Of a DNA stretch of 35,468 nucleotides, positions 1 through 4,512 are shown one piece after another (the first letter of the stretch is position 1; each line of letters starts with the position of its first letter). The notes beneath the pieces are model-generated. The model was not told the DNA's origin. It searched no databases and saw only the letters and a program-made list of their open reading frames with translations. The translations under genes and the position numbers were made by a program. The DNA lies in the NCBI GenBank assembly GCA_021372515.1, contig JAJFUG010000145.1, forward strand, positions 1-35,468, in the 5' to 3' direction. Origin of the DNA: a bacterium. Its GTDB lineage: Bacteria > Gemmatimonadota > Glassbacteria > GWA2-58-10.

Positions 1-322
1 GTCGAATTATTTCCGCTGTCGATCATTTCACCGTCCGTAAAAGCCGTTTGAAATACTTGGGAAAAAATTAAGATACAACTTTTCAGGCTTATTTTCAATA
101 TACTTCCGAGTGTAACGCTGTCAGAAAATTATCTTCTCCGCAAAAACACTTCCTGCGCTCCGGCAAAATTCCGCGAACGTTTCGGCCTCGCCGGGTGTTC
201 TTTCAATGGTGGCCACAATGATCATTATCACGACAATCACGGAAAGGACCGGGAGAGCCGTTCGGCCTGTTGTAAACAGGCGTCCCGGGACCAGGACCGT
301 TGGCAGGAGGGGGTTCAGGTGA
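1..322. other. Left-edge non-coding region downstream of xerC
   Basis: No credible gene is seen in these 322 bases. The region is more A+T-rich than the neighbouring genes for its first 160 bases and carries the predicted minus-strand promoter at 70-98. A perfect 7-bp hairpin with a GTA loop sits at 265-281, just past the xerC stop, but has no T-run, so it is at best a weak transcription end or RNA-stabilising stem. A 10-base perfect palindrome, AATGATCATT, lies at 217-226. Confidence 0.5.
70..98 (-). promoter_or_regulatory. Predicted promoter for a gene off the left edge
   Basis: On the minus strand TTGAAA (98-93) is followed after 17 bases by TATCTT (75-70). It lies downstream of xerC in an A+T-rich patch and points out of the window. 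In Bacillus-type and other genomes xerC is followed by hslV-hslU, so an hslV-like gene is a possible target, but none is visible here. The same TATCTT -10-like hexamer recurs in other intergenic regions of the window. Predicted by eye only. Confidence 0.4.
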
Positions 323-1225
323 TTATTCGCCGCTGCGCGGGTGAGCCTGGCGGTAGACTTTCTTGAGGCGCTCGACAGTGAGGTGGGTGTATTTCTGGGT
401 GGTGGACAGGCTGCTGTGGCCCAACATCTCGGAGATCGCCACCAGGTCCGCCCCGCGGTCGAGCAGGTGCGTGGCGAAACTGTGGCGCAGGGCGTGCGGC
501 CCCAAGCGGCGCGAGTCGCCGGCCAGGGCGCAGGCCTGGCCCACCAGGCGCTCGATGAAGCGCCGGTTGACCCGTCCGCCGCGAGGGCCCAGGAACAGAG
601 GCGACTCGGGACCCAGACGGCCCTCGCTCTTGCGCCGCTCGGCCAGGTAGGCCTGGATCGCCTCGGCCGCCACGCTCCCGAACGGCACGATCCTTTCTTT
701 CGAACCCTTACCCAGCACGCGCACCGTGAGCCGGGAAAAGTCCATCTGGCCCAGGTTCAGGCTGACCAGCTCGCTCAAGCGCAGGCCCGAGGAATAGAAC
801 AGCTCCAGCATGGCCTGGGCGCACAGGCTCCTCAGGCTGCCGTCACCGAACACCTCCAGTAACTGGTCGGCCTGGCCCTCGGTCAGGTACTGCGGGTGAC
901 GTTTCTCGGTCTTGAGCGAGGTCACCGCCGCAGCCGGGTTGGCGCCTGTCTGGCCGGAACGCAGCAGCCAGGCCATGAACCCGCGCACCGCGGCCAGCTT
1001 GCGGTTGATCGTGGTCCGGGCACGTTCCAGACGCGCCAGTCTGGCCAGCCAGGCGCGCACCGTGGTCCGGTCGATCCCGGCCGGGTCGGGCTCCGCCGTG
1101 CCGGTGTACTCACGCACAAAAGCGCAAAACTCGGCGAGGTCGCGCCCGTAAGCGTCAACCGTGTGCGCCGAGTACTTGCGCCGGAGGCTCAGATGACGGA
1201 TGAATTCCTTGACCTGCTGTTCCAC
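323..1225 (-). CDS. xerC: Tyrosine recombinase XerC
   Basis: Site-specific tyrosine recombinase, expected to act with a XerD partner at the chromosomal dif site to resolve dimers. With the GTG start at 1225 the protein is 300 aa, the usual XerC/XerD length, beginning directly in the N-terminal SAM-like DNA-binding domain (about 1-90). The catalytic domain (about 108-295) has the full set: R149 (GLRLSEL), K173 (GKGSKER), H244 and R247 (HALRHSFATHLL), H270 (LGHSS) and nucleophile Y279 (TQKYTH). The frame stays open to a TTG at 1282, but the predicted promoter at 1294-1322 would leave that start almost no leader, so GTG is preferred. The gene follows topA, a neighbourhood known from other bacteria (topA ... 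xerC-hslV-hslU), which argues for a housekeeping recombinase, not a phage or island integrase. Stop TAA. Confidence 0.9.
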   Translation of the reverse strand: MEQQVKEFIRHLSLRRKYSAHTVDAYGRDLAEFCAFVREYTGTAEPDPAGIDRTTVRAWLARLARLERARTTINRKLAAVRGFMAWLLRSGQTGANPAAAVTSLKTEKRHPQYLTEGQADQLLEVFGDGSLRSLCAQAMLELFYSSGLRLSELVSLNLGQMDFSRLTVRVLGKGSKERIVPFGSVAAEAIQAYLAERRKSEGRLGPESPLFLGPRGGRVNRRFIERLVGQACALAGDSRRLGPHALRHSFATHLLDRGADLVAISEMLGHSSLSTTQKYTHLTVERLKKVYRQAHPRSGE

Positions 1226-1293
1226 GTCGCTGCCCCGGGTTGCGGAATCCGGCCGGCTTCTCCGGTCGGCTGGTAACGCCAAGCTTTTAAGTA

Positions 1294-1322
1294 AATAAAC
1301 GGTCTCTGACCGCGATTGTCAA
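1294..1322 (-). promoter_or_regulatory. Predicted xerC promoter
   Basis: On the minus strand a perfect TTGACA (1322-1317) is followed after 17 bases by TTTATT (1299-1294). Transcription would start near 1287, five bases from the upstream TTG codon but about 60 bases before the GTG at 1225, which supports the GTG as the xerC start. It would give xerC its own promoter downstream of topA. Confidence 0.45.
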
Positions 1323-1363
1323 GGGAGCGCCGGCGTGGCCGGATTCTCCGCACTAACCCGCGC

Positions 1364-1431
1364 GATGTAGCGGCAGGCCCCTGTGCCTGCCGTTCCGGTT
1401 TCGGGCGGCCACAGGGGGCCGCCCATACATC
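1364..1431. repeat. Structured palindromic repeat with two complementary-loop hairpins
   Basis: This intergenic element folds as a three-part structure. Hairpin A: 1371-1378 pairs perfectly with 1385-1392 (8 bp) around loop CCCTGT (1379-1384). Hairpin B: 1403-1410 pairs perfectly with 1417-1424 (8 bp) around loop ACAGGG (1411-1416). The two loops are exact reverse complements. An outer stem GATGTA (1364-1369) / TACATC (1426-1431) closes both. It resembles the short dispersed GC-rich palindromic repeats scattered between genes in many environmental bacteria, but only one copy is visible here. It could act as an RNA-stabilising or transcription-ending structure downstream of topA. Confidence 0.7.
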
Positions 1432-1444
1432 CAAATAAGCCAGC

Positions 1445-3805
1445 TCAACCCTTGGGCCCGCCCTCTCCAGACGGGGAGCCGGCGGCGTGGGCCAGCTGCT
1501 CCTCGCTAAACTTACCCTTGCAGGCCTCGCAGTAGATGTAGTGCATGCGGCGGCCGGTCTTCTCGAACAGCGGGCGCGCCCCGCAGGTGGGGCAGACCGT
1601 GTCGATCGGGCGGTCCCAGGAGGCGTAGTCGCAGGCCGGGTAGGCCGTACAGCCCCAGAAAGTCTTGCCGCGGCGGGAGCGGCGCTCGCTCAGCTCACCC
1701 TTGCAGCCCTCGCGCGGGCAGGCGATCCCGGTGGTGACAGGACGGATCTCGCTGCACGCCGGGTAGTTGGTGCAGGCCAGGAACGGCCCGTAGGGACCGT
1801 TCTTGCGGGCCATCGGGCTGCCGCACTTGCTGCATGTCTCGCCGGTCACCTGCTCGGTCACGATCTGGAGGCCGCCGCGCTCATCGCGCTTGAACTGGCG
1901 CGTGTTCTTGCACTGCGGGAAATTGGAGCAGCCCAGGAACTCGCCGTGGCGGCTCCAGCGGATCACCATCGGCGCGCCGCACTGCTCGCAGGCGATCTCC
2001 GTGGAGACAGTGACTTTCTGACGGTTGGCCAGGGCCGTTTCCAGGGCCGGCTTGAAACTGTCGTAGAACTCGTGCAGCACGACGTGCCAGTCCTGCTGCC
2101 CCTCCTCCACCTCGTCCAGACGACCCTCCATCCGGGCGGTGAACTTGACGTTCAGGATCTCGGGGAATTTCTCCACCAGCAGGCTGTTGACCGTAAAGCC
2201 CAGCTCGGTGGGCTTGAGCGCCCCCTTGAGCCGCTCCACGTAGCCCTTGTCCAGGATCGTGCTCATGATCGTGGCATAGGTCGAGGGCCGTCCGATGCCG
2301 TTGGCCTCCAGCTCACGGATGAGCGAGCTTTCCGTGTAGCGCGGCGGCGGCTGGGTGAAATGCTGGTTCGGGGTAACATCGAGAGGCGCCACTTTCTGGC
2401 CCTCCTCGAGCGGCGGCAGGAGACGGTCCTCATCGTTCTCCGGCTCGGACCCGTCGCTGTTGCCGTTTTTGGACTGGGTTTTCTCCAGGCTCTCGTGGTA
2501 GACCCGGGTGAACCCGGCGAAGCGCATAATGCTGCCCACGGCGCGCAGGACAAAGCGCGGCCCGGCCTCGATGTCCACTGTGGTCTGGTCGTAGACCGCG
2601 GCTTTCATCTGGCAGGCGACAAAGCGCGACCAGACCAGGGTGTAGAGCTTGTTCTGGTCGGGGGTGAGGTGGCGGCGCACCTGCTCGGGGCGGCGGAAAG
2701 CGGAGGTGGCGCGGATAGCCTCGTGGGCGTCCTGCACGTTGCCTTTCTTGCTCACGTAATGGATCGGCTTTTCGGGCACGTACTGCTCGCCGAACTCCTT
2801 GGCGATCAGGGCGCGTGCCTCCTCGATGGCGGTCTCGGCCAGGCGGGTGGAGTCGGTTCGCATGTAGGTGATGAGCCCCACCGTGCCCTCGGCGCCCAGG
2901 TCCACGCCCTCGTAAAGGGTCTGGGCCACCTGCATCGTTTTCTTGGCCGGCCAGCCGAAAGTGACCGCAGCCTCGCGCTGCATGGTGCTGGTGATGAAAG
3001 GCGGCGCCGCGCTGCGGCGCTTCTCCTTGCGCTCCACCTGGCGCACCGTGTAGCTGGCGATTGAGCGCAGCTCGGCGGCCAGCGCACCCGCCGTATCGGC
3101 GTCCCGCACCCAGAAACGGTCCTTGCGCTCGGCCTCCGCGTCGGGCCGGGTGACCAGCCGCAGACCGTCCACCGAGTACAACCGGGCCTCGAAACGCTCT
3201 TTCAGCTCGGTGGCCAGCAGGGCCTCGATGCTCCAGTACTCTTTCTGGATGTATTCCTGTATCTCGCGCTCGCGCTCGCAGACCATCCGCACGGCCACCG
3301 ACTGCACGCGCCCGGCCGAAAGCCCGCGCCGCACGGTTTTCCAGAGCAGCGGGCTGATCTGGTAGCCCACCAGGCGGTCGAGGATGCGGCGGGCCTGCTG
3401 GGCCTCGAACAGGCTCTGGTTGAGCGTGGTCGGGTGCTGCATGGCGGCCAGAACGGCGCTCTTGGTGATCTCGTTGAACATCACCCGGTGCACCCGCGCG
3501 CTGTCGCGTCCCAGGATGCCGGCCAGGTGCCAGGCGATGGCCTCGCCCTCGCGGTCCGGATCAGGGGCGAGGAATATCTCGCCGGCCGAGCCGGCGGCGC
3601 GCTTGAGTTCGTTTATGACTTTGTTCTTGCCGGGGATCACCTGGTAAGTGGGCTGGAAATCATTGTCCAGGTCCACTCCCAGCTTCTTTTCCGGCAGGTC
3701 GATCACGTGGCCCATCGACGCGCGCACCTCGAATCCATCCCCCAGGTACTTGCCCAGGGTGCGCGCCTTGGCTGGCGACTCGACTATGACCAGGTTCTTC
3801 GACAT
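1445..3805 (-). CDS. topA: DNA topoisomerase I
   Basis: Type IA topoisomerase that relaxes negative supercoils. The ATG at 3805 is preferred (786 aa): it is preceded by GGGAG at 8 bases and opens directly on the TOPRIM core (SKNLVIVESPAKAR, metal-binding E9). The open frame continues 41 codons upstream without homologous-looking sequence. The TOPRIM acidic motif DPDREGEAIAWHL supplies D82 and D84, and the catalytic tyrosine is Y314 in GLITYMRTDST. The C-terminus carries four Cys4 zinc-ribbon modules: CEQC...CSNFPQC, CSKC...CTNYPAC, CPREGC...CTAYPAC and CPTC...CEAC, as in long bacterial TopA proteins. A low-complexity acidic linker (about 440-460) interrupts the central domain. The gene lies between the smg terminator and xerC. 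Stop TGA. Confidence 0.97.
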   Translation of the reverse strand: MSKNLVIVESPAKARTLGKYLGDGFEVRASMGHVIDLPEKKLGVDLDNDFQPTYQVIPGKNKVINELKRAAGSAGEIFLAPDPDREGEAIAWHLAGILGRDSARVHRVMFNEITKSAVLAAMQHPTTLNQSLFEAQQARRILDRLVGYQISPLLWKTVRRGLSAGRVQSVAVRMVCEREREIQEYIQKEYWSIEALLATELKERFEARLYSVDGLRLVTRPDAEAERKDRFWVRDADTAGALAAELRSIASYTVRQVERKEKRRSAAPPFITSTMQREAAVTFGWPAKKTMQVAQTLYEGVDLGAEGTVGLITYMRTDSTRLAETAIEEARALIAKEFGEQYVPEKPIHYVSKKGNVQDAHEAIRATSAFRRPEQVRRHLTPDQNKLYTLVWSRFVACQMKAAVYDQTTVDIEAGPRFVLRAVGSIMRFAGFTRVYHESLEKTQSKNGNSDGSEPENDEDRLLPPLEEGQKVAPLDVTPNQHFTQPPPRYTESSLIRELEANGIGRPSTYATIMSTILDKGYVERLKGALKPTELGFTVNSLLVEKFPEILNVKFTARMEGRLDEVEEGQQDWHVVLHEFYDSFKPALETALANRQKVTVSTEIACEQCGAPMVIRWSRHGEFLGCSNFPQCKNTRQFKRDERGGLQIVTEQVTGETCSKCGSPMARKNGPYGPFLACTNYPACSEIRPVTTGIACPREGCKGELSERRSRRGKTFWGCTAYPACDYASWDRPIDTVCPTCGARPLFEKTGRRMHYIYCEACKGKFSEEQLAHAAGSPSGEGGPKG

Positions 3806-3900
3806 CCTTATCTCCCGTGACTCAACTTGAAAACCACCGGCGCGCACCCGCACAAGGTTCCACCCGCCCGGTCCGACCGGCGACTGAGGCCCGTAGCGCT

Positions 3901-3944
3901 CAACAAAAACTGCCGGCTTCGCCCTCACTCCGAGCGTCCGGCAG
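3901..3944 (-). terminator. Rho-independent terminator after smg
   Basis: Read on the minus strand, CTGCCGG (3944-3938) pairs with CCGGCAG (3916-3910) and is followed immediately by TTTTTGTTG (3909-3901). It ends the aroC-aroK-smg transcript before topA. A second, longer perfect 10-bp inverted repeat (about 3959-3989) lies between this hairpin and the smg stop but lacks a T-run. Confidence 0.7.
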
Positions 3945-3996
3945 TGCTCTATTCAACCCGGTCCGCACCCGGTGAGGCGCGGACCGGGACAGGGGT

Positions 3997-4512
3997 TCAA
4001 TTGAGGCGGCGCCGCTGCAGCGGACGCAGGCTCTGGTCCTCGAAAGTCTCGAAACCGCTGAAATCATCCGCCTCGGCCAGGCCCTCCCGTGTGGCGTCCT
4101 GGTCCAGGATCAGGTCCATCATCACCCCCTGAAGCTGCTCGCCGCTCTCCACCTCCAGCTCGTTCTCCAGGATGTAGGCGATTATCTCCTCGCACTCCTG
4201 GGGACTGAGCATGCCCATCTCGCGCATCAGCCAGAGATAGCCCTGCGCCCCCGGCCCGATACGCCGGGCCTCGGACTCATCCAGCACCCGGAAAGAGCGG
4301 GCGCGCGACAGGTTTTTCTCGCGCTGGCGCGAATCGGTGCTCTGCGGCTCGAGCTGCAGAAGGTAGGCGTTGATCCCTTTGACTATCTCATCCAGGGTGT
4401 AGCCGCGTTCCATCAGCTCGCGGGTTATCGTGCGCAACTGGCGCTCGAACACCTCGTAGGTGCGGAAGCGGCTGTTCATGTAGGTGATGATCTCTTCTAC
4501 GTTACCCTGCAC
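3997..4512 (-). CDS. smg: Smg/DUF494 family protein
   Basis: 171-aa protein of the DUF494 (Smg) family, whose molecular role is unknown. Family features visible are an N-terminal helical segment (EEIITYMNSRFR), a domain rich in E/R helices, and the conserved C-terminal block SFRVLDESEARRIGPGAQGYL followed by LWLMREMGMLSPQECEEII and an acidic helix ending in LDQD. It starts with GTG at 4512 and overlaps the aroK end by 16 bases, so translation is probably coupled. In Proteobacteria smg sits beside dprA and topA or topA-like genes, so its position just upstream of topA supports the assignment. The terminator at 3901-3944 follows. Confidence 0.85.
   Translation of the reverse strand: MQGNVEEIITYMNSRFRTYEVFERQLRTITRELMERGYTLDEIVKGINAYLLQLEPQSTDSRQREKNLSRARSFRVLDESEARRIGPGAQGYLWLMREMGMLSPQECEEIIAYILENELEVESGEQLQGVMMDLILDQDATREGLAEADDFSGFETFEDQSLRPLQRRRLN

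Follow-up and report, generated by a model that had tools for sequence, protein, structure and literature searches.

The window analyzed here, a stretch of 35,468 nucleotides, contains two genes on the minus strand that flank the element under study. Upstream lies topA, encoding DNA topoisomerase I (1445–3928; Pfam Topoisom_bac, 408.9 bits, together with Toprim and Zn_ribbon_Top1), and downstream a xerC/xerD-type tyrosine recombinase gene (323–1282; Pfam Phage_integrase, 135.4 bits), which we take to be xerC; the start codons of both genes are not certain. The element occupies 1364–1431, separated from the topA stop codon by 13 nt. Past it in the direction of topA transcription is a terminator-like hairpin with a T-rich tail (1299–1313, minus strand), a consensus match only, with one such site found versus 0.2 expected in shuffled sequences.

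Both hairpin stems of the element are perfect. Its left stem pairs CGGCAGGC (1371–1378) with GCCTGCCG (1385–1392) around the loop CCCTGT (1379–1384), its right stem pairs GGGCGGCC (1403–1410) with GGCCGCCC (1417–1424) around the loop ACAGGG (1411–1416), and an outer stem joins GATGTA (1364–1369) to TACATC (1426–1431). A preliminary description of this DNA had reported two perfect 8-bp stems, reverse-complementary loops, and a 6-bp outer stem, all correct to the base, and had taken them for a three-part symmetry. The two stems and loops of that symmetry are exact, but the arrangement is really a two-part one, namely one unit and its inverted counterpart. On the opposite strand the right half has the same make-up as the left, with a tag, a stem, and the loop CCCTGT. 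The outer stem is composite: three of its six pairs are GTA/TAC from the GTAG...CTAC tags and three come from the flank. Among the 40 genomic copies described below, the three flank pairs, from the innermost outward, form in 32 (alignment column 6), 20 (column 5), and 12 (column 4), and by these counts the left flank GAT (1364–1366) and the right flank ATC (1429–1431) lie outside the repeat unit.

The unit itself, which is very probably a REPIN and belongs to what we term family A, spans 1367–1428 in a layout common to the 40 copies, and is matched by our covariance model R1 at 1361–1432 with 79.8 bits. It consists of a left REP (1367–1392, plus strand) with an intact GTAG tag (1367–1370), a variable spacer of 10 nt (1393–1402) that differs in sequence and length among copies, and an inverted right REP (1403–1428, minus strand) ending in the degenerate tag ATAC (1425–1428; consensus CTAC), which reads GTAT inward. 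This tag is one of only three differences between the window copy and the 52-nt arm consensus, and with its consensus right tag lost the window copy may be poorly mobile. The loop is common to both arms and oriented oppositely in them, so the loops necessarily complement each other; this complementarity results from the arrangement and would be seen wherever a single unit is paired with its inverse.

A dispersed family in the genome

The preliminary description had judged the symmetry too exact for chance. RNA folding of 96 nt gave z = -2.64, with equal stability in 1 of 200 shuffles, and chance is excluded mainly by recurrence: an 86-base query returned 40 BLAST matches in the organism's own 4.87 Mb genome, with E values from 4.6e-39 to 1.6e-8. 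That description had also named the lack of any other copy in the genome as a result that would speak against a mobile repeat, and other copies clearly exist. In the alignment of the 40 copies, the arms are constant, whereas the spacer and flanks are variable. The R1 model yielded 119 matches in the same genome, many of which are duplicates of one place, since a nearly symmetric element is matched on either strand; the 87 R1 matches listed for this genome correspond to at least 53 distinct places, with a sister family B and mosaic elements included.

Both tags (GTAG/CTAC) are intact in 24 of the 40 copies. A pyrimidine precedes GTAG in all 24 and a purine follows CTAC in 23 of them, and a direct repeat at the ends is absent from 23, the remaining copy having one of 2 nt. 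The absence of a target duplication fits single-strand HuH transposition, as in IS200/IS605. According to a crude gene call, 33 copies lie outside open reading frames and 7 inside, one of the former (C159:16819) being really inside a RAYT gene that the gene call had missed.

The position of the window copy could suggest that it serves topA itself, as a cis-acting RNA of the topA transcript whose double hairpin is kept for the stability of the mRNA 3' end or for attenuating read-through into xerC. Its place immediately past the stop codon and before the terminator-like site, in the topA direction, is consistent with such a role, as is the crude gene call for the family as a whole, which places 19 of the 40 copies between co-directional genes and 12 between convergent ones, besides the 7 within open reading frames and 2 called divergent, these being the two C159 copies beside the missed RAYT gene. 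A similar preference for convergent or co-directional neighbors is described for published REPs in the main text of PMC3733652. Against this role, R1 found no match in the topA–xerC gap or its surroundings in any of four syntenic relatives of the same family, the same element recurs at many other loci, no T-run follows the hairpins, and window positions 1–4000 are devoid of Rfam matches at E up to 1. We therefore consider a functional RNA after topA, which the preliminary description had also entertained, to be improbable. Given its absence from all four relatives' gaps, the element was probably gained in this lineage, behind topA. The TopA tails of the relatives are 57–64% identical to the one in the window, which is too diverged to recognize an exact empty site, and a fifth relative has topA without a xerC-like neighbor. 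Covariation in homologous topA–xerC gaps, which the preliminary description had proposed to look for, cannot be scored there, as none of the four syntenic gaps contains a copy. The topA gene of one relative (L216, in G001) includes a run of undetermined residues, reflecting an assembly gap or masking.

Two hairpins, rather than one fold, supported by covariation

A second reading of the symmetry is that the CCCTGT/ACAGGG pairing is itself the functional contact of an RNA that acts by kissing loops or as a switch. In the window copy the loops complement each other exactly, as would be expected of such a contact, and the calculated energy of the extended fold, in which the left arm pairs with the right, is comparable or lower in most copies: among the 33 of 40 copies that could be scored, the extended fold is the lower one in 31 with RNA parameters and in 27 with DNA parameters. 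Since this is the case for most scored copies, the two-hairpin clover is not favored by energy; the core of the window copy itself, by the same type of calculation, folds as two hairpins. Covariation, on the other hand, speaks against the contact. Not one pair of the extended fold is changed on both sides in the 40 copies, 500 of 500 shuffles are equal or better in this respect, and loop variants are uncompensated, with column pair 22–55 being U-A in 21 copies, U-G in 12, and unpaired in 7. As arm-to-arm pairing lacks compensatory change and the complementarity of the loops is automatic for an inverted pair with a shared loop, a kissing-loop RNA is unsupported and, in our estimation, very unlikely. 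It is within each hairpin that compensation occurs. The outermost pair of the left stem, for example, is G-C in 27 copies, C-G in 7 (including the window copy), U-A in 1, G-U in 1, and unpaired in 4, and covariation thus supports two separate hairpins.

A resident RAYT with the repeat in its reading frame

The preliminary description had raised a link to a REP-associated tyrosine transposase. Such a gene is present on contig C159 of the same genome, and it contains the same repeat in frame. The encoded protein displays the motifs MPNHIHG, LWQRGYYE, and YILNNP, and between its HuH and Tyr motifs, residues 94–114 (VGAAPCGRPDNTGQAQGPAPT) are the translation of a family A REPIN in phase 0. This embedded copy agrees with the consensus at all 52 arm bases, as do only six of the 40 copies including itself, and it attains the top R1 score; another family A copy lies just 3' of the gene.

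The protein scores above the cut-off for Y1_Tnp. Its match to NCBIfam NF047646 (REP_Tyr_transpos) amounts to 66.7 bits in two stretches, below the cut-off of 80, and is presumably split by the in-frame REPIN. A single-sequence search of the PDB returned nothing at 0.001, and an alignment profile of the protein matched the REP-bound E. coli TnpA_REP structure 4er8 at 1.3e-6. The same profile weakly matched a TRAP transporter chain (E 0.005), which was set aside as implausible. An AlphaFold model (mean pLDDT 79.8) matches the ISDra2 and IS608 transposases as well as 4er8, and in this model the REPIN-encoded stretch is predicted to be a low-confidence loop (pLDDT about 50) leading from the HuH strand at 81–88 to the helix at 117–139. 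With the motifs NH[IFV]H, WQ, and YIxNNP and a REP in frame between HuH and Y, the protein has the features of RAYT subclass 2.4 / group 4 and appears from its sequence to be of this type. It is scarcely credible that family A derives instead from an ordinary IS200-type insertion sequence, as a non-autonomous form unconnected with any RAYT, for while the genome does encode a 146-aa IS200-type transposase on contig C18 (NCBIfam transpos_IS200, 151.5 bits), that contig holds not one of the 40 BLAST copies, two of which are instead associated with the C159 RAYT, in its frame and immediately 3' of it, and GTAG tags with inverted doublets are features of REPs.

Interpretation and relation to known systems

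Taken with the results above, we are highly confident that the element is a REPIN, i.e. a miniature, non-autonomous pair of inverted, GTAG-tagged REP hairpins, and that family A owes its spread through this genome to a resident RAYT/TnpA_REP, a single-tyrosine HuH nuclease of the type of subclass 2.4 / group 4. The evidence consists of the copy number, the tags, the covariation of two hairpins, the RAYT gene with its in-frame consensus copy, and the absence of the element from the gap of relatives; the inverted REPs with a short spacer, their many dispersed and mostly non-coding copies, and the REPs at the RAYT gene are all characteristic of REPINs. A short non-autonomous palindromic repeat, as first surmised, is thereby borne out by the many copies and the compensatory stem changes.

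By analogy with other RAYT groups, several inferences can be made regarding its mobility. Firstly, when the DNA becomes single-stranded, for instance behind a replication fork, the two arms would fold as a clover. Secondly, a RAYT dimer would read the GTAG guides together with the hairpins and nick nearby, and the strand would then be inserted elsewhere without duplicating the target. The alternative long hairpin might correspond to a non-substrate state, following a proposal by Bertels and Rainey (2011), who describe two folds for REPINs, a long hairpin that is stable and a clover that is less so, and suggest the latter as the RAYT substrate (PMC3116915). One such copy would have landed just behind topA, where it is now probably a passenger in the topA 3' untranslated region.

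The REPINs of Pseudomonas fluorescens SBW25 in the same paper resemble family A in having two inverted REPs, a less conserved spacer, a dispersed distribution, and a linked RAYT, and the long-hairpin and clover folds possible for them are the very alternatives that had been noticed in the window copy. Unlike them, the arms of family A differ in stem and share the loop, and its cognate RAYT carries a copy in its own frame. This latter trait is found in the account of Quentin et al. (2018), whose text describes subclass 2.4 / group 4 proteins with NH[IFV]H, WQ, and YIxNNP and a REP between HuH and Y that leaves the tnpA_REP frame undisrupted, "long" and "double foot" REPs, and a dedicated REP family per tnpA_REP type where a genome holds several (PMC6006769). 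The REPs studied here resemble these "long" and "double foot" REPs of subclass 2.4, of which the "long" kind has, according to that text, three G-C pairs at the stem base. Because in-frame REPs of a RAYT subclass have already been published, neither the REPIN nor the embedded copy is new in kind. What is added to that account, as far as its text extends, is a new genome with new REP sequences and several RAYTs, each with a different embedded REP, two of which have exact dispersed matches to an arm or over the full length.

The GTAG families in the text of Di Nocera et al. (2013) likewise exhibit a GTAG tag, opposite dimers, positions downstream of genes, and occasional in-frame copies (PMC3733652); family A is likened to their 24 families by general features. 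Corneloup et al. (2021) report that two RAYT groups co-evolve with their REPs and that group 3 REPs cannot be altered at certain positions of the loop (PMC8266576). The E. coli TnpA_REP/REP system and the group 3 REPtrons treated there use a GTAG guide plus hairpin as substrate, as would be expected here, whereas E. coli REPs require a stem bulge and the stems of family A are perfect; none of the three duos tested in that text belongs to group 4 (PMC8266576).

Other RAYTs and REP types in the same genome

Further RAYT genes or gene pieces occur on contigs C164, C4, C149, and C133. Those of C164, C4, and C149 each contain a different hairpin at the same place in the hinge. Two dispersed copies, L196 (C176:7186-7247) and L046 (C45:10139-10200), match the hinge REPIN of the C164 gene (L187) without a difference over 52 nt. 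The C149 hinge is of the type GGGCACG-N6-CGTGCCC, a double-foot REP family with 100 matches in the genome and with paired changes in the center (GGCATGCC, GGCGCGCC, GGTGCACC, GCTGCGGC). Another pattern, GGGCGGGTTTNAAACCCGCCC, occurs 25 times in this genome, where no intact RAYT carrying it was seen. The C133 piece (L190, C133:1-240) stops at the contig edge just before the hinge, and a repeat perhaps broke the assembly there. In two mosaic elements, L199 (C144:17196-17264) and L200 (C151:14541-14607), an arm of the GGGCACG family is joined to a family A arm, much like bacterial interspersed mosaic elements. In the open-access papers searched, no report was found of several RAYTs per genome that each hold a different embedded, matching REP.

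Embedded REPs in RAYTs of many phyla

Of the 11 genomes that gave a RAYT hit, 8 also contain R1 matches, versus 0 of the 30 that gave none (Fisher p 1.7e-6), an association partly due to shared ancestry, as 6 of the 8 genomes represent one family; the other 3 of the 11 RAYT-positive genomes lack an R1 match. For a broader view, 80 RAYT loci from many phyla were fetched, the best 80 of 562, of which 76 were analyzable and 4 were skipped by a motif filter. A perfect hairpin of at least 8 bp is present in 61 of the 76 hinges, compared to 154 of 3304 control windows drawn from these loci and 2 of 76 when the remainder of the gene is considered, and a hairpin tagged with GTAG or CTAC in 53 of 76, compared to 72 of 3304 and 1 of 76, although the share of REP-bearing hinges is inflated to an unknown degree by the ranking of the loci with a query that contained REP-encoded residues. 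The tag is mostly read in one codon phase: GTAGGGRC is in phase 0 in 40 of 46 cases, in phase 1 in 6, and never in phase 2, where it would create a TAG stop.

At least three Watson-Crick pair types are used at every stem position from 5 to 8 in a set of 68 distinct arms; these arms were chosen as hairpin-forming, which renders their pairing circular as evidence, but not their diversity. The commonest loops (CCCCGT, CCCTGT, and CTTGT) share C..GT, and a further common loop, CATG, is of the palindromic double-foot type. A RAYT tree, built without the hinge, includes 73 of the 76 loci, 57 of them with a tagged arm. For these 57 genes RAYT distance correlates with arm distance (Mantel r 0.48, p 0.001), and the tree requires 4 changes of loop class, versus a shuffle mean of 19 and minimum of 11; as with the survey, the selection of loci exaggerates both figures by an unknown amount.

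Embedded copies with and without a dispersed population

The notion that every embedded REP has a dispersed family was not upheld by pattern searches with GGGCAACCNCNNGGGGTTGCCC and GGGCGGGTTTNAAACCCGCCC in 54 genomes. The pattern GGGCAACCNCNNGGGGTTGCCC is present in 10 of them and in the chosen RAYT hinge of 8; in 6 of these 8 the embedded copy is the only exact copy in the genome, in 2 there is one further copy, and the two other genomes have one copy each and a chosen hinge without the pattern. GGGCGGGTTTNAAACCCGCCC is present in 15 genomes and carried by 4 chosen RAYTs, with the embedded copy alone in one carrier genome and accompanied by 1, 3, and 44 more in the other three. The remaining 11 genomes have no copy in the chosen hinge. 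In one of these, G001 (22 copies), GGGCGGGTTTNAAACCCGCCC is carried by an additional RAYT, L202; in another, G055, the pattern occurs 84 times and the fetched RAYT hinge (L131) carries another sequence. RAYT/REP specificity as measured by these pattern searches is therefore only partial. In a second test, covering at most 20 kb around each RAYT, its own embedded core recurs at 12 of 62 loci, compared to the 1.5 expected without specificity.

It is less expected that several genomes keep the RAYT-embedded copy alone, and no report of embedded REPs without dispersed copies was found in the open-access papers searched. Such a copy may be kept for its own sake, its dispersed copies may have decayed, or the enzyme may act on arms with other stems. 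Conceivably, the REPIN within a RAYT gene is a resident seed rather than a chance insertion, such that gene and DNA substrate move between phyla together, founding a dispersed population in some hosts and persisting as the sole copy in others, while protein recognition and embedded REP change together, the loop (C..GT) being read by base and the stem as a structure. We hold this idea tentatively and regard it as rather doubtful; the 6 of 8 genomes with no other exact copy are compatible with it but do not prove it.

A striking double hairpin is thus explained without a new RNA, and the genome offers a test bed, as it encodes several RAYTs of the subclass with a different REP in each frame and with dispersed families matching at least some of them, by which RAYT/REP specificity and the origin of REPIN populations become directly testable. 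Annotators should also be aware that what looks like a VGA...APT peptide in a protein of this kind (GTAGGGGC... and ...GCCCCTAC) is a translated REP. Multiplied REP arms in the RAYT frame can be found in the hinges of L177, L173, L134, and L155, and that of L177 comprises three GTAGGGGTTCAAAATATTGAACCC units.
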